From assembly GCA_025350325.1 (NCBI GenBank), contig JANXYB010000076.1, positions 1 to 64,000 of the forward strand: a stretch of DNA of 64,000 bases, given 5' to 3'. The translations under genes and the position numbers were made by a program. The stretch is from Acidobacteriaceae bacterium (GTDB lineage Bacteria; Acidobacteriota; Terriglobia; Terriglobales; Acidobacteriaceae). Shown here piece by piece: positions 219-63,356 of the stretch. Under the pieces are notes generated by a model that saw nothing but the letters and a program-made list of their open reading frames with translations, was not told the DNA's origin and did not search any database. Position 1 is the stretch's first letter; every line of letters starts with the position of its first letter.

Positions 219-479
219 TCACCCCAAATGTACGACTGCTCAAACTTCCGCCACAGGTCTTCACGGGCTCGGTCAGGCCGTTTTTCCTAGGCCGCTGTTT
301 TTCCTAGGCGGGGAGTGCACAAAGAGCCCCTTTGCACGCTAGCGCTTGTGAAAAAGCTTCCGTTGTCCTGGATAGCAATCTTTCTGTCGCCTTGAATGCG
401 GTCTGCGATTCGTCCGAATGCATCACAAATCTGTGAGGCCGCAATATGCAGACGGCCAGCGTCGGAAGGAACATCAAAA

Positions 480-1367
480 ATGGCGACGAATCCTGAGATT
501 ACTGTTGAAGCTGGTCGCGGAAAGTCGGCGACGATCAATTTGGAGCCGCTCGAAGAAAGCCTGCAGAAGCTGATCCATCAGGCCTTTGCCAGCGGCGGCC
601 CGGCTGGACAGAAGCTTAAAAGCTTCTTGAACGGAACGTGGCTCGGTGAGCCGCTCCACGTCATTCTCACCGATATCCCTATTGGCGCATGGACCGTCGC
701 TCTGACGTGCGATGGCCTCGAAATATTGACTCAGCAGGGCGAGTTCGCAACGGCCGCCGACACAGCTATCGCAATTGGGCTCGCCGGTGCCGCTGGCGCG
801 GCCATCACCGGCATCACGGATTGGCAAGATGTCGACCCGCCGGCTCGCAGTATCGGCATAGTCCATGGCCTACTGAACGTCGGCGCCACAGCCCTGTTCG
901 CGATCTCTCTCGTGTATCGACGACGCAAGTCGCGGACCAATGGCCGCATTTTCGCCGCCCTGGGATACGCCGCAATGAGTGTGGCTGCGCATCTCGGCGG
1001 GAAGATGGTGTACGAACACCGCGTTGGGGTCGACCGCACCGATGGCCAGGCGCTTCCCGACAAATTCGTCCCTGTGCTGCCGGAGTCTGCGCTGCCTGAA
1101 TCCACCCCAACGCATGCCGAACATGACGGCGTGCCGATCCTTCTCGTCCGTAGCGGAGACAAGGTCTTCGCACTCGCTGCCACCTGCTCCCATTTTGGAG
1201 CGCCGCTCGCTGAAGGAAAGCTCGTCGGCGAAAGCATTGTGTGCCCGTGGCACGCTTCGCGATTCGCGCTCGCGGACGGCCGCGTGCTCGACGGTCCCGC
1301 CGTTCATCCGCAGCCATGCCTCGAAGTTCGCGTGCGGAACGGGCAAATAGAAGTTCGCAAGCCTTAG
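480..1367 (+). CDS. DUF2231-like membrane protein with C-terminal Rieske [2Fe-2S] domain
   Basis: C-terminus has Rieske motifs CSHFGAPL and CPWHASRF; N-terminus hydrophobic with DUF2231-like pattern; ATG at 480. Confidence 0.85.
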   Translation: MATNPEITVEAGRGKSATINLEPLEESLQKLIHQAFASGGPAGQKLKSFLNGTWLGEPLHVILTDIPIGAWTVALTCDGLEILTQQGEFATAADTAIAIGLAGAAGAAITGITDWQDVDPPARSIGIVHGLLNVGATALFAISLVYRRRKSRTNGRIFAALGYAAMSVAAHLGGKMVYEHRVGVDRTDGQALPDKFVPVLPESALPESTPTHAEHDGVPILLVRSGDKVFALAATCSHFGAPLAEGKLVGESIVCPWHASRFALADGRVLDGPAVHPQPCLEVRVRNGQIEVRKP

Positions 1368-3029: not shown

Positions 3030-4592
3030 ATGTTTGCAACTTCGCAATTGCTGGTTGGCGGCCGTTCTGACGTAGGGCGCAAGCGAACCGAGAACGAAGA
3101 TCGCTTCTTCATCGATGCGCAACGTGGCATCTTTCTGGTTGTCGATGGGCTCGGCGGGCATGCAGCGGGCGAGCGAGCTGCGGAGATTGCGGTCGACATT
3201 ATCTGCACCCGGCTGTCGCGGCGCACTGGGGCAACCGACAAGCGCATCCAGGAAGCGTTCGCGCTTGCCAGCACGGAAATCTTCGACGCCGCCTCTCGCC
3301 ACCCCGAGTGGGCGGGAATGGCATGCGTCGCCACTGTCGCATTGATTGAAGAGGGTCAGGTTACGATCGGGCACGTAGGCGACTCGAGGCTCTATCTGCT
3401 CACCCCCGGAAAGATCGAGAAGATCACGCGCGACCACTCGCCGGTAGGTGAGTTAGAGGACTCGCAAAGGCTAAGCGAGGACGACGCCATGCACCATCCG
3501 CGGCGCAACGAGGTGTACAGAGATCTCGGGAGTACGCCTCACACGCCCACCGATACGGAGTTTGTTGACATTCATTCCTTCGCTCTTCCATCCTCGGCGG
3601 CGCTCCTGCTCTGTTCCGACGGCCTTACAGATCAGGTGACAGCTTCTGACATCCGACACATCATCGAGCACCATGCAGGAGATCCAGAATTGGCCGCCCG
3701 CGCACTCGTCGACGCTGCGAATGAAGCGGGGGGTAAGGACAACGTCACGGTGGTATTGGTCGAGACAAAGGACTACGCGGGTGTATCTGCTGCGAAACCC
3801 GGTCAGGGTTCGGCTAATCACCCTTCTCGGTGGCTCTGGTTCCTTCTCGGCCTTCTCATGGCATCTGCCCTGTTCGTGGCAGCGCGGCCGTACTGGGAGG
3901 ACTCTACATCTGGATTTAAGCTTCGCTTTGGGTTGGTGAGCGCACCTCGGACCTGGACAGTCGGTCCAAATGGCATCCCCACAATCGGAGCGGCCCTGGA
4001 AGGAGCGCGACCGGGAGACACTATTGCAGTAAGCCCTGGGGACTATCACGAAGATCTACATCTGCGCAGCGGCATTTCTGTCGTAAGCACCGCGCTGCAC
4101 GGCGCCCGGATCCTTTCGCCCGATGTGGCGGTGTTCGCTGACAACATTCATAACACGCGTTTCGTTGGTTTTGACATTCCCGGTCCTGGCCGAGTGGGCA
4201 TTCGCATCGCAGACTCCGATCTACAAGTCACGGACCTGCGAGTGAGTGGTATGCAGAACGTCGGCATCGAGATCACCGGCAGGGGTGAGTCTGTAATCCA
4301 GGCCTCCGAGCTTGCGGACAATCCCGGCGTGGGGGTTTCGGTCCGCGCAAACGCTCGCCCCCGCCTTGACCACAACCTCATCCGGCACAACGGACATGGC
4401 GCAGCGATGCTGCCCGGAATTCTTGTCGAAGGTTCAGCCGCCCCGACCCTCTTTGGGAACATCATTGAAGAGAGCGGAGCCGAGCAGATATGGGTCTCGC
4501 CGTCTTTTCATGTAGGCAGTCTGTTGACTGACAATGTGGTGGGCCCCGACCGGCACGCTAAGAACAATCAGCTCAGGGTAAAAGCTAAATGA
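3030..4592 (+). CDS. PP2C-family Ser/Thr phosphatase with TM segment and C-terminal right-handed beta-helix domain
   Basis: RTENEDRFFID, VVDGLGGHAAGE, GHVGDSRLYL, CSDGLTDQV, GGKDNVTVVLV; TM WLWFLLGLLMASALFVAA; NosD/pectate-lyase-like repeats after it. Confidence 0.92.
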   Translation: MFATSQLLVGGRSDVGRKRTENEDRFFIDAQRGIFLVVDGLGGHAAGERAAEIAVDIICTRLSRRTGATDKRIQEAFALASTEIFDAASRHPEWAGMACVATVALIEEGQVTIGHVGDSRLYLLTPGKIEKITRDHSPVGELEDSQRLSEDDAMHHPRRNEVYRDLGSTPHTPTDTEFVDIHSFALPSSAALLLCSDGLTDQVTASDIRHIIEHHAGDPELAARALVDAANEAGGKDNVTVVLVETKDYAGVSAAKPGQGSANHPSRWLWFLLGLLMASALFVAARPYWEDSTSGFKLRFGLVSAPRTWTVGPNGIPTIGAALEGARPGDTIAVSPGDYHEDLHLRSGISVVSTALHGARILSPDVAVFADNIHNTRFVGFDIPGPGRVGIRIADSDLQVTDLRVSGMQNVGIEITGRGESVIQASELADNPGVGVSVRANARPRLDHNLIRHNGHGAAMLPGILVEGSAAPTLFGNIIEESGAEQIWVSPSFHVGSLLTDNVVGPDRHAKNNQLRVKAK

Positions 4593-6448
4593 GCCAGGAG
4601 ACCGCAGGCCGCTTCATCCTTCACCGCAAACTGCCGGCAGGCGGTATGGGCCGCGTCTTTGAGGCTGAGGATCCGGTTGGGCCGCGCCGCGTCGCGTTAA
4701 AACTAATCGATCTGGGGACCGACCCCGACAGCCTTCAGATCGTAAGTGCAGAGCGGCTTGGGGCCAAGTTGCAAACGCAACTCTGCGCGATCGACAAGCG
4801 TGTCACCGCGATATATGAGTCCGGCGAGATGCCGCGCTACTTCTACATCGTGATGGAGTACGTCGATGGGCACGACCTGTCGGAGCTCTATTCCGGCAAA
4901 GGTCTCGAACCAATGCTGGCCGCGCACATCGCGCAGGACATTCTTGAAGTCTTGGATCACGCCCATAACTTTTCGACTACTCTGGACGGCCGCTCCATCC
5001 TGGGTATTGTTCATGGTGACCTGAAGCCGCGCAACATCCGTCTCACTCCGACCGGCGAGGTTAAGGTACTCGATTTCGGCATCGCCAAGGCGCTCTCGTT
5101 GACACGCAACTTCACGCAGAACCTTTTTGGCAGCGTGCAATATTCCTCCCCGCAGCGGCTCCTCACGGGAGAGGTCGACGCTGGCGCGGATCTCTGGGCT
5201 GTGGGCGTCATGCTGTATGAAATGCTGGCGGGTCTTCCGTACTTCCAAGCCGAGAACGGATCGAAGCTCGAGCACATGATCCGCAACTATGACCGCGTGT
5301 CGCCTTTGCCGGAAGCGTTGCCACCGAGCCTCCGTAACATTCTCGAAAGAGCTCTCCATCCTGATGTGCGGGTACGCTACCAAACCGCTGCAGAATTTGC
5401 CAAAGACCTTCAAGCATTTCGAAATGGCATTGCGGTTGCGGGCCCGGCAGATGTTGAAGCCACACGCCGAGTGCCGCTCACCGACGACGCTACCAAACGC
5501 ACGTCTCGACCGGAGCCCGGCCCACCTGCGCCGGTAGACGCGACACGAAGAACCGTCCCTCCGCAATGGAGGCCCGTACAAGCCCACCAAGTGCCCAGCC
5601 GCAGGCCGAGCTTGGTACGCACGATGCTGCGCACCATCGCCGCGTTCTTGCTCGCGGTCACGTTCTTTGTTGTCTATCTGATGGTGAATGAGTACCTGGT
5701 GTGGGGCAGCGCTCACCAACTGGCACGGGACTTGTCCAGCGAAAAGCAGCAGAATCTCGATGCCGCCTGGCGTCAATACCAAGGCCTCGCGTCGCGCTCC
5801 CATTTTCCGATCAGCCTGTGGGCGGCTCGATCCGAGTTGCAGAAACACCTCGTCTCGGATGCCGACAGCACCATCGTGAAGTTCCGCGCGCCGGACGCTC
5901 CGCCTGTGTCAGAGACTGACTGGATTCACGCCCGTGACGATCTGTCCCGTGCGATCGATCTCGCCCCCGGCGACAAGACACTCCATGGCAAAATCCGTCT
6001 GGTCGATGGCCATCTGGCTCGTCTGCGCGGCACCGCCGAAAAAGATCCTCGGCTGCTGGAGAATGCACGCCAGGACTTTCAGGCAGCAGCCCTCTCCATG
6101 AAAAAATCGCCCGACCCATGGCTCGGCTTAGCTCCTCTGTACATCTACTCTCTGCACGACTTGGCGCATGGCGAAGCAGCGATTCGACAGGCAAGCCATC
6201 TCGGTCACCCGGCCGGTAAGCGCGAAACAGCGGAACTCGCAGATGGTTACCGCGACCGGGCTGAGCGCAACATCGCATTAGGAGATCAGGCGACCACGAC
6301 AAAGCAGGCAAGTCACTATTATCGGATGGCAGCTCCCGACCTTGGACGTGCGCGCCGCCTCTATGAGAGCATCCTGCCGTGGGACGGCGCATCCGCAAGC
6401 CTTAAACAGGTGGTTGATTCGATTGACCGCATCTCAACCATGAAATAG
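4589..6448 (+). CDS. Membrane Ser/Thr protein kinase with C-terminal TPR-like extracytoplasmic region
   Basis: VALKLI, HGDLKPRNI, DFGIAKAL, DLWAVGVMLYEMLAG; TM at IAAFLLAVTFFVVYLMV; ATGA overlap with PP2C gene. Confidence 0.93.
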   Translation: MSQETAGRFILHRKLPAGGMGRVFEAEDPVGPRRVALKLIDLGTDPDSLQIVSAERLGAKLQTQLCAIDKRVTAIYESGEMPRYFYIVMEYVDGHDLSELYSGKGLEPMLAAHIAQDILEVLDHAHNFSTTLDGRSILGIVHGDLKPRNIRLTPTGEVKVLDFGIAKALSLTRNFTQNLFGSVQYSSPQRLLTGEVDAGADLWAVGVMLYEMLAGLPYFQAENGSKLEHMIRNYDRVSPLPEALPPSLRNILERALHPDVRVRYQTAAEFAKDLQAFRNGIAVAGPADVEATRRVPLTDDATKRTSRPEPGPPAPVDATRRTVPPQWRPVQAHQVPSRRPSLVRTMLRTIAAFLLAVTFFVVYLMVNEYLVWGSAHQLARDLSSEKQQNLDAAWRQYQGLASRSHFPISLWAARSELQKHLVSDADSTIVKFRAPDAPPVSETDWIHARDDLSRAIDLAPGDKTLHGKIRLVDGHLARLRGTAEKDPRLLENARQDFQAAALSMKKSPDPWLGLAPLYIYSLHDLAHGEAAIRQASHLGHPAGKRETAELADGYRDRAERNIALGDQATTTKQASHYYRMAAPDLGRARRLYESILPWDGASASLKQVVDSIDRISTMK

Positions 6449-6462
6449 GAGAAGGGGAACGA

Positions 6463-9400
6463 ATGGCGGTAACTCGCAGCACATCGGTCGAGCGGGCCGA
6501 TAAACCTCGCCCCCCCATAGATGCGCGCGCCCGGGCGCTGGAACGCATTCTCTTACTGCTGACCTCGGTCCTGATCGTTGCTGCGGTGAGCCTCACAGCG
6601 GCAGCGAAAATGGCTCGGATCGGTGGCTCGGATAGCGCGCGCCTCAACCTCTCCACCCTGGACAGACGCGAACAACTCCTTCCCTTCTTGCAATGGATTG
6701 CTTCTCCTGCCGAGCGCCAGTACATCGCCGGCGAGATATTCGAGCATGTCCGCAACGGCAAGGGGTCGGTGTCGCACATTGGAGAGCTCGGCCAAATCCG
6801 CGTCCCCATCAAGGATGTGCTGCGGACGCATGGACTCACCGGATTGCAGGCACGTGCCCATGAGGTGCAATCAGCGCGCCCCGGGGCGGAGTCCATCCTG
6901 CTTCTCGACTCGAGGGATGTGGCGCGGCTGAAGCCATCCTTCGTTGTGCGGGACACGTCCCAGTTTCGCAAGCAGCTCATCTTGTGGACTTTTCTTTTCT
7001 TCTGCTCATTCGCGGCCGTGCATATCTTTTGGTCGTTCCGCGGAGTCGGCGGCCCGCAATACGTGCTGCCGTCCGTTCTGCTGCTGAGTGGCGTCGGATT
7101 GACGCTGATGATCACCCTGCGTGACCCGGTGCGAGATACGCTTGCCTTTTCAAGCTTTGCCCAAGGCGTGGCCGGTGGCTGTATCGTGTTGGCTCTTGCC
7201 AGTGCGTTGGACTATCGCCGCATCAGCGGAAAGCTAAGCTACGTTTTTTTGATCGCTAGCTTTCTGCTCTCGGCCGCACTCATCCTCTTCGGTTCCGGGC
7301 CCACCGGCAGTGATGCAAAAGTAAATCTCCTCGGATTTCAACCTGCCGAAGTAATCCGCGTTTTAATCGTTTTCTTTCTGGCCGGATACTTCGCCGAGCG
7401 ATGGGAATTCCTTCGCACATTGCGCGAACAACGCAAAGAACTCAAGAACATCTCGCGTTGGGTGGATGTGCCCAGGCTCGAGTATTTGCTGCCTGTGCTT
7501 GGCGGCGTGGTCGTCTCACTCGCCTTCTTCTTTCTGCAGCGGGACCTTGGACCGGCGCTGCTCATTGCCTGCCTGTTTCTCGCTATGTACGCAGTTGCCC
7601 GCGACCGGTATCCGCTTGCGCTCATGGGCCTCGTAGTGATCCTCTCCGGTTTTGCGTCGGGCTACTACCTCGGTTTTCCCAAGAACGTGGCTGGCCGGGT
7701 CTCGATGTGGCTGTCACCATGGGACAACTCTGTTCGCGGCGGCGAACAAGTGGCCCATTCCCTCTGGGCGTTCGCCACGGGGGGAGCGTTCGGCACGGGT
7801 CTTGGCCTAGGCGATCCCCAGTGGATGCCCGCAGCTCATACCGATCTCATCCTCGCTGCGCTTGGCGAAGAATGGGGATTTCTGGGCGTGCTCGCTGTGC
7901 TTGCACTCTATGCTGGCCTCGTTTGGTTCGGCATGCGCGTCGCGCTGCATGCACGTTCCGATTACAACTTTTTTCTCGCGCTTGGGCTCACCCTGGCTTT
8001 TGCTCTCCAAATCGTACTCATTGCGGGCGGCGTGCTCGCTTTAATCCCCCTCTCAGGGGTTGTGGTTCCCTTCCTCAGTTACGGCAAAACCGGTCTCATC
8101 ACCAACTTCGCGATCATCGGAATTCTATTCTCCCTGAGCAGGGATGTTTCCCATGCGCGGGATACGACCGAGCCGTTTCGCGTCAGCATGCGGGGCATCT
8201 CCTACGTGATCGCCGGGCTCGGCGTCTGCCTGTTGCTCAAGGCGTTTTACATCCAGGTAATCCGTCCCGACGCCACTGCTGGGGCCGGTGCGCTCGCGGT
8301 GCAGGCAGATGGAGAGCGCCGCTATGAATACAATCCTCGTCTCCTCGCGATTGCGCACTCTATCCCCCGCGGCACCATCTACGACCGCAACGGACTCCCG
8401 CTCGCGACCAGCAACTGGGAAGAGATTGCGCAAAACCGCGACCGCTATGTCGCCATGGGCCTGACCGTGGGTCAACAGCCCACCCCGGGGGAGGCGCGCC
8501 ACTATCCGCTAGGGCCAGCGGCATTCCATCTTCTTGGAGATCTGCGGACGCGCGTCAATTGGTCCGCACACAATAGTTCCTACGCAGAGCGTGATTTCAT
8601 GCTCACACTGCAGGGCTACGACGACCGCGCCAGCGTTGTAGAAGTGGTCGACCCGCGTACCAAAACTTCGCAGCATATCCTGCGATTCGATTACCGCGAA
8701 CTGCTGCCCCTGCTGCGCCATCGCTGGCAACCCAATCATCCTGACGTTAAGAAGATCCTTGAGCGCGATCGCAATCTGCACATGTCCATCGACGCTCGCC
8801 TGCAGTTGAAGACAGCGGACCTGCTAGCGCACCAACTTCAAAAAGTTGGTCGTACCAAAGGCGCGGTCGTAGTGCTCGATCCTGAGAACGGAGACTTGCT
8901 CGCATCCGTAAGTTATCCGCTGCCAGACCAGTCCCTCTCCAATCCGGCGTCGGATCAGGATGCCGCCTTGCTTGATCGTGCGCGCTATGGACTGTATCCC
9001 CCCGGCTCGTCTTTCAAGATCGTGACGGCCATCGCGGCTCTCCGCAAAGACCCCGCCAACGCTAATCAGGTCTATGAGTGCAAGCGCCTTCCAGACGGCC
9101 GCACGGGCAACTACATACAAGGATGGTCGCGCCCTATCCATGACGACGTCAAAGACACTGCGCCGCACGGAACCATTTCAATGGGCGCGGCCCTGGCCGT
9201 CTCGTGCAACGCATATTTCGCGCAACTGGGCACGTACAAGGTCGGCCCGGAAGCACTGCTCGATACTGCCACTCGGCTCGGCATCTCCGTAGCGAATCCG
9301 TCGAACGTGAAAACTCTGCGTGCAGAGATGCCGCAGACGTCCTACGGCCAGGGTCAAGTGGTGGCCACTCCCTTCCAAATGGCGCGCGTGGCAGCCACGA

Positions 9401-9780
9401 TTGCCAATGGTGGCTCAATGTCCTTTGGCCGCTGGGTTACAGGCCAGATGAACCCGCGACAGGACCAGCCACAAGCAATTCTAAATCCGGACCTATCGGC
9501 GCAGGTGGGCCTGTACATGCGCAGCGTCGTCACCTCTGGTACCGGTCGCAGCGCAAATTTGCCGGATATCCCGATGGCCGGCAAGACAGGGACGGCGGAG
9601 CTCGAACATGCTCCGTCGCACGCCTGGTTCATCGGATTTGCCCCGTATGGCGGATCGCATAAACTGGCATTTTCCGTCCTGATCGAGAATGGTCAATACG
9701 GCGGCACTGCCGCCGCTCCGCTTGCTGCGGAGGTGATGCAGGCAGCCAAGACACTTGGCTACCTCGAAGGAGCGCCATGA
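6463..9780 (+). CDS. SEDS glycosyltransferase (RodA/FtsW) fused to class-B penicillin-binding transpeptidase
   Basis: 1105 aa in one frame. SEDS motifs LQRDLGPALL, HTDLILAALGEEWGFLG, PLSGVVVPFLSYGKTGLITNFAIIG; PBP motifs PPGSSFKI (SxxK), SCN (SxN), AGKTGTAEL (KTG). Confidence 0.95.
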   Translation: MAVTRSTSVERADKPRPPIDARARALERILLLLTSVLIVAAVSLTAAAKMARIGGSDSARLNLSTLDRREQLLPFLQWIASPAERQYIAGEIFEHVRNGKGSVSHIGELGQIRVPIKDVLRTHGLTGLQARAHEVQSARPGAESILLLDSRDVARLKPSFVVRDTSQFRKQLILWTFLFFCSFAAVHIFWSFRGVGGPQYVLPSVLLLSGVGLTLMITLRDPVRDTLAFSSFAQGVAGGCIVLALASALDYRRISGKLSYVFLIASFLLSAALILFGSGPTGSDAKVNLLGFQPAEVIRVLIVFFLAGYFAERWEFLRTLREQRKELKNISRWVDVPRLEYLLPVLGGVVVSLAFFFLQRDLGPALLIACLFLAMYAVARDRYPLALMGLVVILSGFASGYYLGFPKNVAGRVSMWLSPWDNSVRGGEQVAHSLWAFATGGAFGTGLGLGDPQWMPAAHTDLILAALGEEWGFLGVLAVLALYAGLVWFGMRVALHARSDYNFFLALGLTLAFALQIVLIAGGVLALIPLSGVVVPFLSYGKTGLITNFAIIGILFSLSRDVSHARDTTEPFRVSMRGISYVIAGLGVCLLLKAFYIQVIRPDATAGAGALAVQADGERRYEYNPRLLAIAHSIPRGTIYDRNGLPLATSNWEEIAQNRDRYVAMGLTVGQQPTPGEARHYPLGPAAFHLLGDLRTRVNWSAHNSSYAERDFMLTLQGYDDRASVVEVVDPRTKTSQHILRFDYRELLPLLRHRWQPNHPDVKKILERDRNLHMSIDARLQLKTADLLAHQLQKVGRTKGAVVVLDPENGDLLASVSYPLPDQSLSNPASDQDAALLDRARYGLYPPGSSFKIVTAIAALRKDPANANQVYECKRLPDGRTGNYIQGWSRPIHDDVKDTAPHGTISMGAALAVSCNAYFAQLGTYKVGPEALLDTATRLGISVANPSNVKTLRAEMPQTSYGQGQVVATPFQMARVAATIANGGSMSFGRWVTGQMNPRQDQPQAILNPDLSAQVGLYMRSVVTSGTGRSANLPDIPMAGKTGTAELEHAPSHAWFIGFAPYGGSHKLAFSVLIENGQYGGTAAAPLAAEVMQAAKTLGYLEGAP

Positions 9781-10565
9781 GTAGACTGCACGATCTAGAG
9801 CGCCGCATCGATGAAAAACTGCGCGGCATGCTGCGCCCTTCGTCCCCGGATCAGAAACGCGAACTGCTTGAAGTCCATCGTGCCATCCTCGACGATGTCG
9901 CTGCGCATGTCGACACATTGCCGCGCGGTAAGCAGGCGTTCGTCTACACGCATTTAGACGTGCAAATACTTCTCCCTGACCCCGCGCTGCGACGGTCTTA
10001 CGAACTGGTCTTCGTCGAGGCCGATGCTCTCGCTCGGGATATTCGGCTGCGGCTCGAAGATCAGCGCATAGAACTCCCAGAGCATCTGGCGGTGCAGGTG
10101 GAGCTAGTGCCGGAACTGCCGCCCGATGTAGCGGCGCGCGGCTTTGATGTCCACTATGGAAGCATTCCCTCCGTGCAGCCCTCCGAGGAGCTAATGGAGG
10201 TTCGCTTTACCATCATCGCCGGGTCTGCCCAGCAACCAGAACTGTGTATGAAGAAGAGGCGCATCAACCTCGGTCGTCTGGCCGAAGTTGTCGATGCGGA
10301 TGCGCGGCTCACGCGACAAAACGACGTAGCATTCCGCGACGACGCCCAAGCTCCCAACCCGTCCGTCTCCCGGGCGCATGCCCACATTGAATTCGATCCG
10401 GGGAAGGCGGTGTTCCGCCTTTTCGATGATCGCAGCGCCCATGGAACCACGGTCATCAGGGATGGCTCCGTGATTCAAGTCCCTCAGGGCCCCAGCAAAG
10501 GCGTCGCCCTGCAAAACCGGGATGAAATCGTGCTAGGACAAGCCCGTCTCCGCTTCGAATTATAG
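9777..10565 (+). CDS. FHA domain protein
   Basis: C-terminal FHA core SVSRAHAHIEFDPGKAVFRLFDDRSAHGTTVIRDG; ATGA overlap with upstream gene. Confidence 0.88.
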   Translation: MSRLHDLERRIDEKLRGMLRPSSPDQKRELLEVHRAILDDVAAHVDTLPRGKQAFVYTHLDVQILLPDPALRRSYELVFVEADALARDIRLRLEDQRIELPEHLAVQVELVPELPPDVAARGFDVHYGSIPSVQPSEELMEVRFTIIAGSAQQPELCMKKRRINLGRLAEVVDADARLTRQNDVAFRDDAQAPNPSVSRAHAHIEFDPGKAVFRLFDDRSAHGTTVIRDGSVIQVPQGPSKGVALQNRDEIVLGQARLRFEL

Positions 10566-10893
10566 CGGCGAGCAGCTAGATTGTTGCGACCAGTTGCAAG
10601 CTTATGCAGACTGATTGGTAGCGTGCGAAAGAGCCAAAGTTGGCTTCTAAGCCGATTAGATTGGCCTCATCCAATTCATGACGTAAGTCGCCAGCCACGT
10701 TGGCTTTGCCCAGACCACGCCATAGTTTGGCGAATGAGTCGAGCTCGCTAATTGGTTCCCGTCCATTGTGCGACCGGCGCTGTGAGCAAAGTAGAACAGT
10801 CTAAATCGACCCAATGTGAAATGATAGGGAGATACTGATAACTATGTCCCTTATTAGAATTCAGGCCAGCAATATTGGCGGGTAGAGGTGGCA

Positions 10894-12339
10894 ATGATCG
10901 CAAAGAAACCAGCCAAAACTCTTCTCATCGAGACTCAGCCGGTAAAGGCTCTCCAGATCCGAGAGATGCTCAACGGCCAGGGCTCGCATGTGCTTGATTT
11001 GGCCGCTGTCGAGACCTTAGCCGAGGCCGAAATCCATCTCGTGGCCCATGCGCCAGACATTGTCTTGCTTGACCTGGAATCGGTCGAGCCGTCAGGCCTG
11101 GAAGCAGTGCAGCGGGTACGCGCCGCCGCGCCCTCTGCCTCGCTCGTGTTGCTGTCGAGTGTCAAAGATGAGCCTATCGCTATCAAGGCAATGCAGGAGG
11201 GCGCACAGGACTATCTCATCAAGGACGAAATTGAGCCGCGCGAACTCATCAGAGCGCTCCTCAATGCCGATCGGCGCAAGAAAGTCGAAGGCGTTCAAAA
11301 CATCGAAAAGGAACGCGCCCAAGCCACGCTCGACTGCATCGGCGATGCGGTAATTTGCACCGACACGTCAGGCAACATCACATATCTAAATCCCGTCGCG
11401 GAGACAATGACCGGTTGGGCGCTGAAAGATGCGGTCGGCCAGCCCATGGCGCACTGTGCCCGCATCGTGGACTCCAAGACCCGCCAAAACATCCTGGATC
11501 CGATGGCGAAAGCTTCTTCGCAAGACCGCACAGGAAATTTACCGTTAAACAGCGTCCTTATCCGCCGTGACGGCCACGAAGTATACATCGAGGATTCGGT
11601 GGCCCCCATCCACAACCCGGAGGGGCAGGTGACCGGAGCAGTCATCGTGTTTCGCGATGTGAGCGCAATGCGAGCGTTAGAGAAAGAGCTGACCCAATCC
11701 GCGCAACTTGACCATCTCACCGGATTGCCGAATCGAAACCTGCTCAAGGATCGGATTCGTCAGGCGATACTTCTTGCCCGCCGGAACGGATGCCATGCCG
11801 CGGTATTGTTTCTGGATTTGGATGGATTCAAACAGATCAACGACTCACTAGGACATCCGATCGGCGACAAGGTCCTGCAGTCCGTCGCCAAGCGGCTGCT
11901 GGATTGCGTGCGCTCCCCAGACACCATCATCCGATTGGGCGGGGACGAGTTCATCGTGGTGCTTCAAGAGTTGAAACGGGCGGAAGATGCCGAAGTTACC
12001 GTACGAAGACTGTTGAAGAAGGTGGCGGAACTTCACCTCATCGAGCAACACCAGATTTACGTTACAACGAGCATCGGTGTGAGTGTCTACCCGCGCGATG
12101 GCCAGGACGCGGAGACCCTTATCAAGAATGCGGACACCGCCATGTATCACGCAAAAAGGGATGGTAAACACGACTATAAGTTTTTTAGCCTGGACATAAA
12201 TGACAAATCCCCGGAACACTGGACTACCGGGCAAGAATTATGGCATGCCCTGAATTGGTACGAACTCACAGCAGGACTAAAGAACATTGAACCTGACATG
12301 AATCGTGATCGACCGACTTCCGCGAAGTCGCGGCGATGA
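10894..12339 (+). CDS. Receiver-PAS-GGDEF diguanylate cyclase
   Basis: Receiver-like N-terminus, PAS domain, RLGGDEFIVVL active site and RSPD I-site 5 residues upstream. Confidence 0.92.
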   Translation: MIAKKPAKTLLIETQPVKALQIREMLNGQGSHVLDLAAVETLAEAEIHLVAHAPDIVLLDLESVEPSGLEAVQRVRAAAPSASLVLLSSVKDEPIAIKAMQEGAQDYLIKDEIEPRELIRALLNADRRKKVEGVQNIEKERAQATLDCIGDAVICTDTSGNITYLNPVAETMTGWALKDAVGQPMAHCARIVDSKTRQNILDPMAKASSQDRTGNLPLNSVLIRRDGHEVYIEDSVAPIHNPEGQVTGAVIVFRDVSAMRALEKELTQSAQLDHLTGLPNRNLLKDRIRQAILLARRNGCHAAVLFLDLDGFKQINDSLGHPIGDKVLQSVAKRLLDCVRSPDTIIRLGGDEFIVVLQELKRAEDAEVTVRRLLKKVAELHLIEQHQIYVTTSIGVSVYPRDGQDAETLIKNADTAMYHAKRDGKHDYKFFSLDINDKSPEHWTTGQELWHALNWYELTAGLKNIEPDMNRDRPTSAKSRR

Positions 12340-12558
12340 CCACCAACGCACTCAAAAAAGAGACCCGCAACTGCGATGGTAGCGCCAGTCATTTAGTGTC
12401 GCGTCTCAGCAGTTGTTGCCATCTAGATGTGAAGTTTCAACAGGTGGTCCGTTCGATCTGAACGACGCTGGTTGTGACGAGCAATCAGATTTTCAGAAGA
12501 TGATCGAATGGACGAACAGCAAAATGCCCGATTGACGATTTATAGTCGGCATCACGGA

Positions 12559-15024
12559 TCATTTGCCTGCTTCAGGCGCAGATGAAATCCTGGCGTACTC
12601 CTGTTTGGCGCTTTTCAACTCCGGAATATCCCTGTCGCCATCAGCCCAGAGTGTCAGGAATTGTTTGTAGGCGGTCCCGGACTCCAAGCGTTTTCCCGAC
12701 AACGCGAATGCTCGAGCAAGGCCCAGTTGAGCCAGTGCGTGGCGTGGAGAGGTTACGTCTATCCCCGGATGATCGATGATCTTTTGAAACTCCGCTGCGG
12801 CGTCGCGTCCTTGCCCAAGTTTCAGAAAGGCGAGTCCGCGGATGTAAACCGGTCCCAGACTCACAAATTCGCATAAATCGTAGGGAAGCGTATCGGCCAG
12901 CAGTTGAACGGCGCGCGCTGGACGACCGGATTTGACTTCTACGCTTCCCAAGACTGTTGGGAGCGAGGCCATCCTCAACGGGATATGAAGTGGAAAACGA
13001 CGGCTTAGATCGTTAACAACAATACGAGCGTGCGCACCCCCACCAGCCAGGGCAAGCGCCTGAGCGGCGGTCTCCTCCGTGTCGATCCCATAGCCGAGCT
13101 TCAGCGCCCGTTCCGCTTGCGACTGCGCCGCGCGAAGTTTTCCGAAGTCTGCTTCAACGACCGCCACGCCGGCCATTGAATAAGCCTCATCCTCTTTATT
13201 TCCGCTGCGACTTTCTGCATCCCAGGAGCGCCGAAAGATTGTGAGAGCGGACTTGAGGTGGCCGGACGCTGCTTGCGCAAAGCCTTCCGTAGCTAGCATG
13301 TCGTTTGGCCGCGGAGATGTGGCTCCCCACAAATGTTCGCGTAGCATGCCGGGCGCATCGCGCTCAAGAAAAGCGAGGTCGAAGAGCACTTCATGAGTAT
13401 CGAGACTGTCTCTGTGCCTTGTCTGGGCACTCTCCGCAACGCGTTTGGCGTCGTCAAAGCGCCCCAGCGCAAGATAAGACCGAGCCAGATTGGCATAAGG
13501 TAAATAATGGTTTGGCTGCAGCCCCAATGCCTCCTCTGCGGCTACTGCGGCCTTCTCGTACTCTCCGCTCACTTGATATCGAGCCGACAAGGTGTTGAAC
13601 GGACGCCAGTCCCGAGGGTAGATCTGCGTCCACATCTCAGCCGTTTGGATCGCCTTATCCGTGTCGCCTACCACTACCAGGTCATAGCGAATGGTCAGGA
13701 AAAGCTTTTCGCGCTCACTGAGATGATCGCGGAGCGCATAGGCTTTTCTCAAGTACCCGGCAGCTTTTTCAGACTCTCCGAGATTGTTGTATTCGATTCC
13801 GAGTTGCGTATACGCCATGGCAAAGCCGGGGTCGAGTTCCGCAGCATGCTCGAAGAGAAGAATGGCTTTGCTTTCCTCCCCACGCGTGAGCTGGTCGATT
13901 CCAACCGAGTAGGCCTTCAGGGCTTCGAGTGAGACCGTGGTGACCTCATCCAAGTGAAGATCGAACGCACGAATTGAGGCGACCGATTCGCCAAGCTGTT
14001 TCCGCAGCTTGGCTGAAATCTGTCCCAGCGCGCGCAAGACATCCTCTTTGTTTGCTACCTCGACTTGCTCGTGGGCCAGGGTATGCCCATCTCCGCAATT
14101 TTGAGCTTCCAAGGCTAAGATATAGCTGTTGCCGATGCGCGCGACCAAGCCTCCGATAACCACCTTTGCGCCGGCCCGCTGGCAGACTTCTCTAGCCAGA
14201 CCTCGACTGATTGGCTCTTCGGCCGATCGACCCATGAGCCGCAGGATTTCGCGATCCCTGTCTCGGGAGACGATATCGAGAAACGGTGACTGGCCCAGTT
14301 CAATTTCCAACGCGTTCTTGAGCGCCCCATCGAATACCGGCTCGCTCGTAGTGTTTTGGAAGTCCGCCAGTAGCACTGAGTCCTTCTGGGTTAATGCCGC
14401 CTGGACCGGTGGTCCCCGATGCGCAATGAACCCCGCTCCGGCTGCAAGTACCGCCGCGACCACCGCGAGTGTCGCCCATCTTCTCCACTTGACGGTTGCC
14501 GGCCTGGTTTCCAAAGCCGCTATTGTTACGGATGCATCGAATGCTGTCGGACGCTGTTCCTCGGGCCGCATGGACGGCAGCCTGAAGTCAGACGCGCTGG
14601 GCGCCGCTTCCAAAGGCGCTAGCAATCCATCGGCAGCTTCCAGTCCGGGACTGGCACGCGCTCCCGTCTCCAATGGCTTCGCCGCCGCCGGTGGATTCAG
14701 CTCAATTCTTGCCTCGTCCTGTGACACTGCGCCGATGAACCTATACCCGTACTTGGGGATGGTCTCGACATACTTCGGATGCTCCGGATCATCTTCCAGC
14801 GCGCTGCGAAGTCTCTTGATTGCTGTATTCAAACTGTGATCGAAATCGACGAAGGTGTCCACAGCCCAAAGCCGGTCAAAGAACTCCCTGCGCGTCACAG
14901 CCGTCCCCGGGCGCTCCAGGAGCAAGCCGAGAACCTGCAGCGGTTGCCCGCTTATCTTCAGTCGAATGCCATGCTTACGGAGTTCGCGGCCAGCGCTGTC
15001 CAATTCGTAGGGGCCAAACCGCAT
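12559..15024 (-). CDS. CadC-like winged-helix transcriptional regulator with TM and TPR repeats
   Basis: N-terminal Trans_reg_C domain (RFGPYELD...IKRLRSALEDDPEHPKYVETIPKYGYRF), hydrophobic segment, TPR-rich C-terminus. Confidence 0.9.
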   Translation of the reverse strand: MRFGPYELDSAGRELRKHGIRLKISGQPLQVLGLLLERPGTAVTRREFFDRLWAVDTFVDFDHSLNTAIKRLRSALEDDPEHPKYVETIPKYGYRFIGAVSQDEARIELNPPAAAKPLETGARASPGLEAADGLLAPLEAAPSASDFRLPSMRPEEQRPTAFDASVTIAALETRPATVKWRRWATLAVVAAVLAAGAGFIAHRGPPVQAALTQKDSVLLADFQNTTSEPVFDGALKNALEIELGQSPFLDIVSRDRDREILRLMGRSAEEPISRGLAREVCQRAGAKVVIGGLVARIGNSYILALEAQNCGDGHTLAHEQVEVANKEDVLRALGQISAKLRKQLGESVASIRAFDLHLDEVTTVSLEALKAYSVGIDQLTRGEESKAILLFEHAAELDPGFAMAYTQLGIEYNNLGESEKAAGYLRKAYALRDHLSEREKLFLTIRYDLVVVGDTDKAIQTAEMWTQIYPRDWRPFNTLSARYQVSGEYEKAAVAAEEALGLQPNHYLPYANLARSYLALGRFDDAKRVAESAQTRHRDSLDTHEVLFDLAFLERDAPGMLREHLWGATSPRPNDMLATEGFAQAASGHLKSALTIFRRSWDAESRSGNKEDEAYSMAGVAVVEADFGKLRAAQSQAERALKLGYGIDTEETAAQALALAGGGAHARIVVNDLSRRFPLHIPLRMASLPTVLGSVEVKSGRPARAVQLLADTLPYDLCEFVSLGPVYIRGLAFLKLGQGRDAAAEFQKIIDHPGIDVTSPRHALAQLGLARAFALSGKRLESGTAYKQFLTLWADGDRDIPELKSAKQEYARISSAPEAGK

Positions 15025-15191
15025 CTGCTACATCCTCTATGGGCGGTGTTGCCCAGCGTGTGCTGAATTCTACTCCGTCGAATCAATAACTCGGCTACTC
15101 ACCAAGCTTTCACCTGGGAATCACCTCGCGTGTATTGCCGTGGCCGCCAGCGAATGGTCTGATCACCGCTGTGATTTAGGAAGAGGGCCGG

Positions 15192-16643
15192 ATGAAACTC
15201 AATTGGAGCAGCCGAAGCATTGTCCTTGTCTGTGCATGTGCATCTCTCACCGCGATCGCAGCAGTCAACGCTTCGATCCCGAACCTCAAACGTTTCTTCG
15301 ATCCAACCGGCGAGGTCGCCACATTCAACAGTGGTGGCGATCTTGACCGCAGCACCGCTTTCTTCCAAAACTTGGGTACCAACGGCCGCACCTGTGAAAG
15401 CTGTCATCAGGCAGACCAGTCGTTTAGCCTTAATCCCGCCCACGTACGGGAACTTTACGACCGCACGCACGGCACGGATCCGTTGTTTGCTTCAATCGAC
15501 GGGGCCAACTGCCCAGAAGCGGAGCCGCATGACCGGCAAGCTCACAGCCTGCTTCTCAGCCGAGGTCTGATTCGCATCCCTATTACCCTGCCGTCGAATG
15601 CGGAATTTACCATCGTCGCGGCGCATGACCCCTATGGCTGCGCCATCCGCTACGATCCCCTGACCAATCAGCAGATTATTTCGGTCTACCGGCGTCCTTT
15701 GCCAACCACAAATCTTCGCTATCTCAGCACGCTAATGTTCGATGGCCGCGAGACCGTCAGTCCGCTGACGGACTCAATGACTATGGCCGCAAATCTCAAT
15801 GCAAACCTGACCCACCAGGCAATTGCTGCGACCCAGGGACATGCCCAGGGCGCTATTCAGCCCACACCCGCGCAGCTTGCTGAGATCGTCAACTTCGAAC
15901 TGGGCCTTTCGACAGCGCAGATTCGTAGCAACCGTACTGGATACCTCGCTAATGGACAAGCGACCGGGGGACCTCTGGCGCTTTCGACGCAACCCTACTA
16001 TCCCGGTGCGAATGACTCCCTGGGGCATGATCCCTCCGGAAAGGCCTTCAACCCTGGCGCCTTCACCCTCTACACTGCCTGGACAAACTCCGGCGACGAA
16101 GAGAAGAGAGATATCGCCGCAGGCGAGGTTGTCTTCAACACCGCCGTGGCTACAATAACCGACGTACGGGGGTTGAACGACAATCCGGCGCTCAATAGCC
16201 CAGCCTCTATCGCCGGCACCTGCACTACCTGTCACGACTCTCCCAATGTAGGCAATCACACTCTCCCCCTGCCGCTCGACATCGCGACGAGCCGCCAATC
16301 GCTGATGGAGACAAATCCAAGCATCGTCGCCGGCTTGCAGCAGCTCACGCCGCCTGATATGCCGGTGTACGAGATTCGTGGATGTCCCGATCCTCAAAAT
16401 GTTGGCAACACGCTGGTCTTCTATACCTCTGATCCCGGAAAGGGAGTCGTTACCGGGCGATGTGTCGACGTCGGCCGTGGCAAGGGGCCGATTCTGCGCG
16501 GCCTGGCAGGACGTGCGCCATACTTCCACAATGGATCGGCAGCAAATTTGAAGCAATTGGTCGACTTCTACAACCTGCGCTTTCAGATGAGCCTGAGTGA
16601 TCGGCAGAAGCACGACCTGATCGCCTTTTTGAACTCGCTCTAG
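15192..16643 (+). CDS. Di-heme cytochrome c peroxidase/MauG-like protein
   Basis: Two CxxCH motifs (CESCH, CTTCH), signal peptide, GPILRGLAGRAPYFHNGSAANLKQLVDFYNLRF. Confidence 0.88.
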   Translation: MKLNWSSRSIVLVCACASLTAIAAVNASIPNLKRFFDPTGEVATFNSGGDLDRSTAFFQNLGTNGRTCESCHQADQSFSLNPAHVRELYDRTHGTDPLFASIDGANCPEAEPHDRQAHSLLLSRGLIRIPITLPSNAEFTIVAAHDPYGCAIRYDPLTNQQIISVYRRPLPTTNLRYLSTLMFDGRETVSPLTDSMTMAANLNANLTHQAIAATQGHAQGAIQPTPAQLAEIVNFELGLSTAQIRSNRTGYLANGQATGGPLALSTQPYYPGANDSLGHDPSGKAFNPGAFTLYTAWTNSGDEEKRDIAAGEVVFNTAVATITDVRGLNDNPALNSPASIAGTCTTCHDSPNVGNHTLPLPLDIATSRQSLMETNPSIVAGLQQLTPPDMPVYEIRGCPDPQNVGNTLVFYTSDPGKGVVTGRCVDVGRGKGPILRGLAGRAPYFHNGSAANLKQLVDFYNLRFQMSLSDRQKHDLIAFLNSL

Positions 16644-61904: not shown

Positions 61905-63356
61905 TCAAGAAACCGCCGTCGCAACCCCAAGATTCAATGCCGAACTCATCAGCCTGTCTAACATGGTGAACACTTGCGACGCCGCTTGATAACTGCGCTC
62001 GATTTGCTGCATGAGTGCCGCTTCATCGTTCAAGCTGACGCTCGAAAGCGAGTTTCGCTGCGTCTGCAACTGCGTTACCGATGCCGTTTGCGCGGTGTTT
62101 TCTGTCTGCACCTGTGCCACCGTTGAACCCAGCGTAGTGACCATGCTGGAATAAAAATTAACCGGCGATTGGCCGTTGACGACCGCCTGCTTTCCCAGCA
62201 TGGCGAGGCCGATGAGGTTCGCGTTGTCTCCGGTTCCAGCACCAAATGCCCCTGCCGCAATCTGATTGGGGTCTGTCATCACTACCGCCATCGCGGCCGC
62301 GCTTCCCGCAACACTGGCTGACTGCGTGAAGATGTAAAGAGGAGTTGTTCCCGACCCAATCGTCCCGGCCGCGTTTGTCCCCGTACCTTCGACTCCGTTC
62401 AGACCTGTTCCTGAATTGTTCTGCGTGTTGACGTTGGTGCTCACGTCATGAGCGAGTTGGTCGAGAGCAGAGAGCACTGCAGGAATATCGTTATCGCGCG
62501 CGGTCAGATATCCGCCCAGTTGCCCGCCCCCGCTGGTTAGCTCCGACGTCGCGTCGTGCGTTCCAACAAAAAAGTGTGTAGCGCCGTTCACCGTGCCGTT
62601 CGTCAACGCAAAGCTGGACCCCTCCGAGACCAGCGTCTGACCGGAAGTGGTCGTGATCGAGAGCCCATTGTTCTCAGTGGTGATCTGGTTGATCCCGATC
62701 AATTGAGAGAGCGCGCTCAAGTCCTGCTGGCGCTGATCTTCAAGCACGCCTGCATCGGCACTGGGCGACGTAGATTGAATTAGCATATTGAGTTTAGCAA
62801 TCGTAGATGTCAGCGCATTGACTTGGCCCGTAACGCCGCTTGCCTCTCGATCGAGCGCCGACTTCTGCGCGTTCAGGCTGGCTGCTGCGTTTGAAATATC
62901 GCCCGCCAGCGTTGAAGCGGTTGAAAGAACCTGCTGACGGAGTGCATTGTCTGTTGGATTGGCTTCGAGTGAAGAAAATGAGTCGAAGAAGTTGCTGAGG
63001 TCGCTGCCGATATCGCCGGCTCGCGAACTGGCCTTGCCAGAATCCGGCGTGAAGAGCGATTGAACCGAGTTCAATCCGGCCAGCCGTGTGCCGGAGGACG
63101 ACGCCATCTGTTGCTGCTGATCAAGCCGCTCCTGCAGCACACGATCACGCACCGAGGTTGGCCCGGTTTCGGTAACGCCCGTGCCATATGTCACACCGCT
63201 GATCTCGACCGGCTGATTCTCTCGCCAATTGGGCACCTCCTGCGTGTAGCCAGGGGTGTTGGCATTGGCAACATTGTTCGACACAATGTTCAGCGCCGAC
63301 TGATCGGCCTCAAGAGCCGACGAGATGAGATTGAAAGCCGAACTAATCGACCCCAC
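61905..63356 (-). CDS. flgK: Flagellar hook-associated protein 1
   Basis: ALEADQSALNIVSNNVANANTPGYTQEV N-terminus; SVSLNDEAALMQQIERSYQAASQVFTMLDRLMSSALNLG C-terminus. Confidence 0.95.
   Translation of the reverse strand: MGSISSAFNLISSALEADQSALNIVSNNVANANTPGYTQEVPNWRENQPVEISGVTYGTGVTETGPTSVRDRVLQERLDQQQQMASSSGTRLAGLNSVQSLFTPDSGKASSRAGDIGSDLSNFFDSFSSLEANPTDNALRQQVLSTASTLAGDISNAAASLNAQKSALDREASGVTGQVNALTSTIAKLNMLIQSTSPSADAGVLEDQRQQDLSALSQLIGINQITTENNGLSITTTSGQTLVSEGSSFALTNGTVNGATHFFVGTHDATSELTSGGGQLGGYLTARDNDIPAVLSALDQLAHDVSTNVNTQNNSGTGLNGVEGTGTNAAGTIGSGTTPLYIFTQSASVAGSAAAMAVVMTDPNQIAAGAFGAGTGDNANLIGLAMLGKQAVVNGQSPVNFYSSMVTTLGSTVAQVQTENTAQTASVTQLQTQRNSLSSVSLNDEAALMQQIERSYQAASQVFTMLDRLMSSALNLGVATAVS

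Follow-up and report, generated by a model that had tools for sequence, protein, structure and literature searches.

Does a SEDS glycosyltransferase share one polypeptide chain with a class B PBP in this acidobacterial genome and, if so, which SEDS/PBP pair does the chain represent, and what might it do? Within the window (the whole 64,000-nucleotide stretch of DNA that was analysed), positions 6463-9780 of the plus strand form a single ORF of 1105 amino acids with an ATG start and zero internal stops, and the ORF, Pfam and an AlphaFold2 model (mean pLDDT 84.7, pTM 0.77) identify it as a SEDS::class B PBP fusion. Following an N-terminal extension of ~200 residues, the SEDS domain spans residues 200-562 (7060-8148, plus strand, as are all parts of the fusion), with the Pfam family FTSW_RODA_SPOVE (PF01098) matching residues 237-562 (E 1.8e-55; 188.8 bits vs a cut-off of 26.4). 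This domain carries the motifs HTDLILAALGEEWG (residues 459-472) and PLSGVVVPFLSYGKTG (residues 529-544); its putative catalytic residue D461, in periplasmic loop 4, lines up with D262, the catalytic Asp of E. coli RodA (chain 8tj3_B), Q293 and R412 are conserved, and N288 stands where a Trp would be expected. A short, poorly conserved stretch, predicted to be cytoplasmic (residues 563-569; 8149-8169), joins the SEDS C-terminus to the PBP transmembrane helix (residues 570-600; 8170-8262), as placed by comparison with a congener and AlphaFold2; residues 563-577 are 53% identical to the congener fusion, and the junction falls in a block of lower pLDDT. The pedestal region (residues 601-765; 8263-8757), delimited by alignment and AlphaFold2, is followed by the transpeptidase domain (residues 766-1105; 8758-9777), where the Pfam Transpeptidase match (residues 800-1093; E 1.2e-41) lies above its cut-off by a wide margin.

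The PBP motifs are SSFK (849-852), SCN (914-916) and KTG (1041-1043), so that the class B traits (SxxK, SxN, KTG, transmembrane anchor and pedestal) are all present; no GT51 domain was matched by Pfam in the fusion. A second KTG, within YGKTG (542-544), was rejected as a PBP motif because it is part of the SEDS domain. The earlier note had proposed one uninterrupted 1105-codon frame with SEDS signatures and all three transpeptidase motifs, which the ORF, the Pfam matches and the motif positions confirm. Its proposal of a native covalent fusion with intact catalytic residues is likewise supported, these residues being invariant across the aligned fusions, and a covalent fusion therefore fixes the two activities at a 1:1 ratio.

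The host assembly is a draft in 160 contigs, and a sequencing or assembly error could in principle have merged two genes. We consider the chance of this negligible, given that the fused frame recurs in many independent genomes (single-contig ones included), lies on an annotated complete Spirosoma plasmid and is under purifying selection along its length. A congener carries the full-length fusion in one frame with 70% identity to the window fusion, and dN/dS between the two was ~0.11 overall, an estimate in which dS is near saturation. Wherever a part allowed an estimate, the ratio was low: 0.08-0.09 for the SEDS and transpeptidase domains and 0.2-0.27 for the N-terminal portion. These values put the entire frame under purifying selection. 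A low ratio does not by itself reveal whether polymerisation or cross-linking is the selected reaction. Recurrence in the congener, other genomes and the plasmid, together with purifying selection, rules out an assembly or frameshift artefact.

The earlier note had viewed the fusion against RodA-PBP2 and FtsW-FtsI; the SEDS::bPBP fusion stands, but it is neither of these canonical pairs. Both are present as separate proteins elsewhere in the host genome, which holds two more SEDS genes, one adjoining a transpeptidase gene and the other ~8 kb from another transpeptidase gene. In the SEDS tree and in a concatenated SEDS/transpeptidase tree, the fusion falls in the RodA-PbpA (pstP-operon) branch, separated from the canonical pairs with 100% SH-aLRT. 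The separate genomic copies and the trees rule out a fused canonical RodA-PBP2 or FtsW-FtsI. Among PDB sequences, M. tuberculosis PbpA (3un7) was the best match to the transpeptidase, and structural comparison agreed. Because the canonical pairs lie elsewhere, the tree position is that of RodA-PbpA and the transpeptidase is PbpA-like, the fusion is, as judged from these comparisons, a third, accessory SEDS/bPBP pair of the host genome. By tree position it belongs with RodA-PbpA; being one ORF, it is classed as a fused derivative and kept apart from the two-gene system.

The taxonomic spread, on which the earlier note took no position, could be mapped: Acidobacteriota, Rhodothermota, one Armatimonadota (Chthonomonadales) bin and Coriobacteriia all yielded fused frames, and natural fusions were already on record. 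Most other matches in Actinomycetota, Bacillota and Chloroflexota had the adjacent two-gene form, often with a 4-base overlap. The window's clade had matches in 3 of 81 genomes of the genus (one a fragment), in 1 of 301 genomes in the family sample, which may be an undercount since that search scored just two candidates per genome, in 7 of 246 genomes from the rest of the phylum, and in 9 of 247 genomes in the phylum of the Rhodothermota query. In Coriobacteriia the fusion was nearly universal (116/121 genomes). A single clade of all fusions was rejected (p-AU 0.015, in a quick tree from which the long-branch locus L047 was omitted), and with it a single origin; as far as this tree goes, SEDS::bPBP fusions arose at least two times. 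The window's clade has a sporadic, accessory distribution and includes one plasmid copy: the Spirosoma oryzicola plasmid NZ_CP089545.1 carries at 5244-15800 the order FHA-PP2C-STPK-STPK-SEDS::bPBP-FHA, with two kinases and a fusion of 1323 aa.

The fusion is the fourth gene of a five-gene cassette, all on the plus strand. It begins with an FHA protein with an FhaA_N-like N-terminus (2077-2931; FHA E 2.3e-10, FhaA_N E 4.4e-06), whose position matches that in related loci. The second gene is a PP2C Ser/Thr phosphatase, the pstP counterpart (3030-4592; PP2C E 4e-18), with a right-handed beta-helix region as its C-terminal part (Beta_helix E 2e-09), and its stop overlaps by 4 bases the start of a Ser/Thr protein kinase (4589-6448; Pkinase E 3.3e-35). 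The C-terminal region of this kinase is of a non-PASTA type, and Pfam matched no PASTA domain in it. The kinase also reads HGDLKP instead of the usual HRDLKP and may be a non-RD kinase. The last gene encodes another FHA protein (9777-10565; FHA E 1e-06), which starts in a 4-base overlap with the fusion stop and is kept 3' of the fusion in related loci.

Of the Acidobacteriota loci with enough sequence to reveal the order, nearly all had kept FHA-PP2C-STPK-fusion-FHA; at the divergent locus L047, PP2C was the sole cassette partner recognised. Around the congener's copy, just the five cassette genes were found among the seven window genes queried, and we infer that the cassette may be gained and lost as a unit. 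At one locus (L046:6510-19031) the cassette is rearranged and includes three kinases, and its 1241-aa fusion has additional sequence within the PBP pedestal region. A promoter/terminator scan gave a signal no higher than in shuffles, and tRNA and Rfam scans across the window returned no matches. Elsewhere in the window, we observed a Rieske [2Fe-2S] domain fused to a DUF2231 membrane region (396-1367, plus strand) and a FlgK-like flagellar hook-associated protein (61905-63356, minus strand; Pfam FlgK_D1 E 2.5e-41).

The N-terminal region opens with a predicted cytoplasmic tail (residues 1-26; 6463-6540) containing MAVTRST, which resembles a motif, M[AS][VI]T[RK]ST, shared by many clade members. 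This Thr motif, absent from L044, L047, L048, L052 and L054, is a candidate phosphothreonine site. Two extra N-terminal transmembrane helices are common to the SEDS branch of the fusion, Coriobacteriia included; in the window's clade a periplasmic domain lies between them, whereas the Coriobacteriia fusions are without an insert. In the window this predicted insert (residues 51-164; 6613-6954) is helical, and the isolated domain was modelled by AF2 with a pLDDT of 84.9. It had no Pfam match, no significant Foldseek hit (best E 1.3) and no significant match in a PDB profile search. GspK/XcpK chains were listed by Foldseek solely at E above 4. In one relative (L052), the sole one with such a match, the insert matches HHH_3 (E 1.6e-14), and the window insert is probably derived from a helix-hairpin-helix domain. 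The inserts of the Rhodothermota (L050 / L132) and Spirosoma (L135) fusions hold a CarboxypepD_reg-like domain, not an HhH-like one.

Within periplasmic loop 2 of E. coli RodA, Trp102 and Gln111 have been described as invariant in SEDS proteins. The former has been proposed as a strand guide. W102A lowers RodA activity, and in E. coli FtsW the W138A substitution has a dominant-negative effect. In the fusion, N288 occupies the position of W102, and Asn was found there in 14/14 clade members aligned and in further clade loci, the Spirosoma plasmid fusion included; the counterpart of Gln111 is kept as Q293. Trp was found at this loop position in 24/24 canonical, 59/61 split-pair and 7/7 Coriobacteriia proteins. 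The column can be regarded as reliable because the stretch between this residue and the QP motif aligns gap-free in members such as L042. The fusion therefore departs from the reported invariance at the Trp and conforms to it at the Gln. The earlier note had named loss of the SEDS Asp or the PBP Ser as evidence that would count against it; in our alignments both are kept (the Asp in 14/14 clade members), though the reportedly invariant Trp is changed. From the profile match and the catalytic Asp, homology to SEDS is clear despite the lost Trp, which on this comparison is a conserved residue and not a family-defining one. Given the effects of W138A in FtsW and W102A in RodA, the Asn could make for a weak or altered polymerase.

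It is possible that the fusion acts just like a separate RodA-PbpA pair, with both the fusion and the Trp-to-Asn change neutral or compensated. This would be consistent with the retention of all catalytic Asp, Ser and Lys motifs, with engineered fusions of separate pairs that work, and with the split pairs of many Actinomycetota, whose 4-base overlap is one step short of fusion. However, an Asn fixed in the whole aligned clade and its further loci, with Trp kept elsewhere, looks like selection and not drift, and we consider this ordinary reading rather unlikely. A repurposed polymerase appears improbable: the fusion would then use another lipid-linked substrate or make short or non-processive strands, e.g., in stress repair or for a specialised wall, and not bulk peptidoglycan. 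The fixed change in a loop proposed to guide the strand, a clade-specific FGxGP motif close by, the variable N-terminal inserts (HHH_3 and CarboxypepD_reg among them) and the accessory distribution point that way, but Gln293, Asp361, Pro456 and Asp461 are retained in the clade, and the transpeptidase is a normal one with PbpA as its nearest match.

The reading that we favour, at a probability of roughly 60%, is that the fusion is an accessory, phospho-regulated, self-contained peptidoglycan synthase; we infer its biochemical and regulatory steps throughout. It would derive from the separate RodA and PbpA of a pstP-type operon. The SEDS part would polymerise lipid II via D461, and the PBP part, which has a helix of its own as anchor and the short cytoplasmic junction as tether, would cross-link the new strand via S849. 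The kinase, the PP2C with its sensor-like beta-helix region and the two FHA proteins may switch or localise the synthase, the switch being threonine phosphorylation of cytoplasmic parts, possibly of the conserved N-terminal tail. The lack of the Thr motif in some members and of PASTA repeats in the kinase speaks against this reading. The periplasmic insert may bind an envelope ligand or partner, and with Asn in place of the strand-contacting Trp, polymerisation would be expected to differ from that of RodA and FtsW in processivity or substrate. More tentatively, and less likely than not, the locus might be a horizontally moving, kinase-controlled synthase cassette in which the Asn-bearing SEDS part polymerises differently and the attached transpeptidase takes up the nascent strand.

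A natural clade with the Asn and its own transpeptidase offers a ready test of the proposal that the Trp guides the strand. The accessory distribution, with one copy on a plasmid, suggests that a wall synthase complete with its regulation can be acquired or lost whole, and the near-universal fusions of Coriobacteriia provide a second, independent natural case for asking why a fusion is kept.

That SEDS-PBP fusions exist as single ORFs is already known from a one-sentence mention in PMC10449877 (2023), with the Rhodococcus RHA1 genome as reference. In a literature search that covered few subscription journals, we found no study of natural fusions beyond this mention, and none that described the window's clade. 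What appears new is the kinase cassette with its sporadic spread, and the periplasmic N-terminal insert and the Trp-to-Asn change of the clade, both apparently undescribed before; the earlier note, although right about the fusion, had overlooked these unusual features. The crystallised PDB transpeptidase domains 4mnr (Eggerthella lenta) and 4jbf and others (Atopobium parvulum) match the transpeptidase half of a Coriobacteriia fusion from just past its membrane helix, and by this match the 4mnr and 4jbf domains may derive from fused genes.

Engineered SEDS-bPBP fusions work in vitro or in vivo, and D262A abolishes the activity of an engineered RodA-PBP2 fusion. The RodA-PBP2 fusion of E. coli solved by cryo-EM (PMC10449877) and a GGGS-linked fusion (PMC6207328) have the same domain order on one chain as the window fusion, but they are man-made from canonical RodA and PBP2 and are without the extra N-terminal helices or insert. 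The natural fusion cited for Rhodococcus RHA1 (PMC10449877) likewise holds both activities in a single ORF, a likeness known from the mention and drawn without sequence comparison. A similar layout is found in the Coriobacteriia fusions (loci L057-L062 and L064), in which one chain runs from SEDS to a PbpA-like PBP and the flanking genes are a PP2C and a kinase. These differ from the window's clade in their independent origin, the missing insert, the kept Trp, their near-universal presence in the class and their gene order, PP2C-fusion-kinase, unlike that of the window cassette. The actinobacterial pstP operon, which in mycobacteria comprises fhaA, fhaB, pstP, rodA, pbpA, pknA and pknB and has been tied to growth and cell shape, belongs to the same branch as the fusion, and PP2C, Ser/Thr kinase and FHA genes are clustered in both. 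There, RodA and PbpA are separate and the kinase has PASTA domains; in the window the two are a single chain, the kinase is without PASTA and lies upstream of the fusion, and the PP2C beta-helix region, the periplasmic insert and the Trp-to-Asn change are added.
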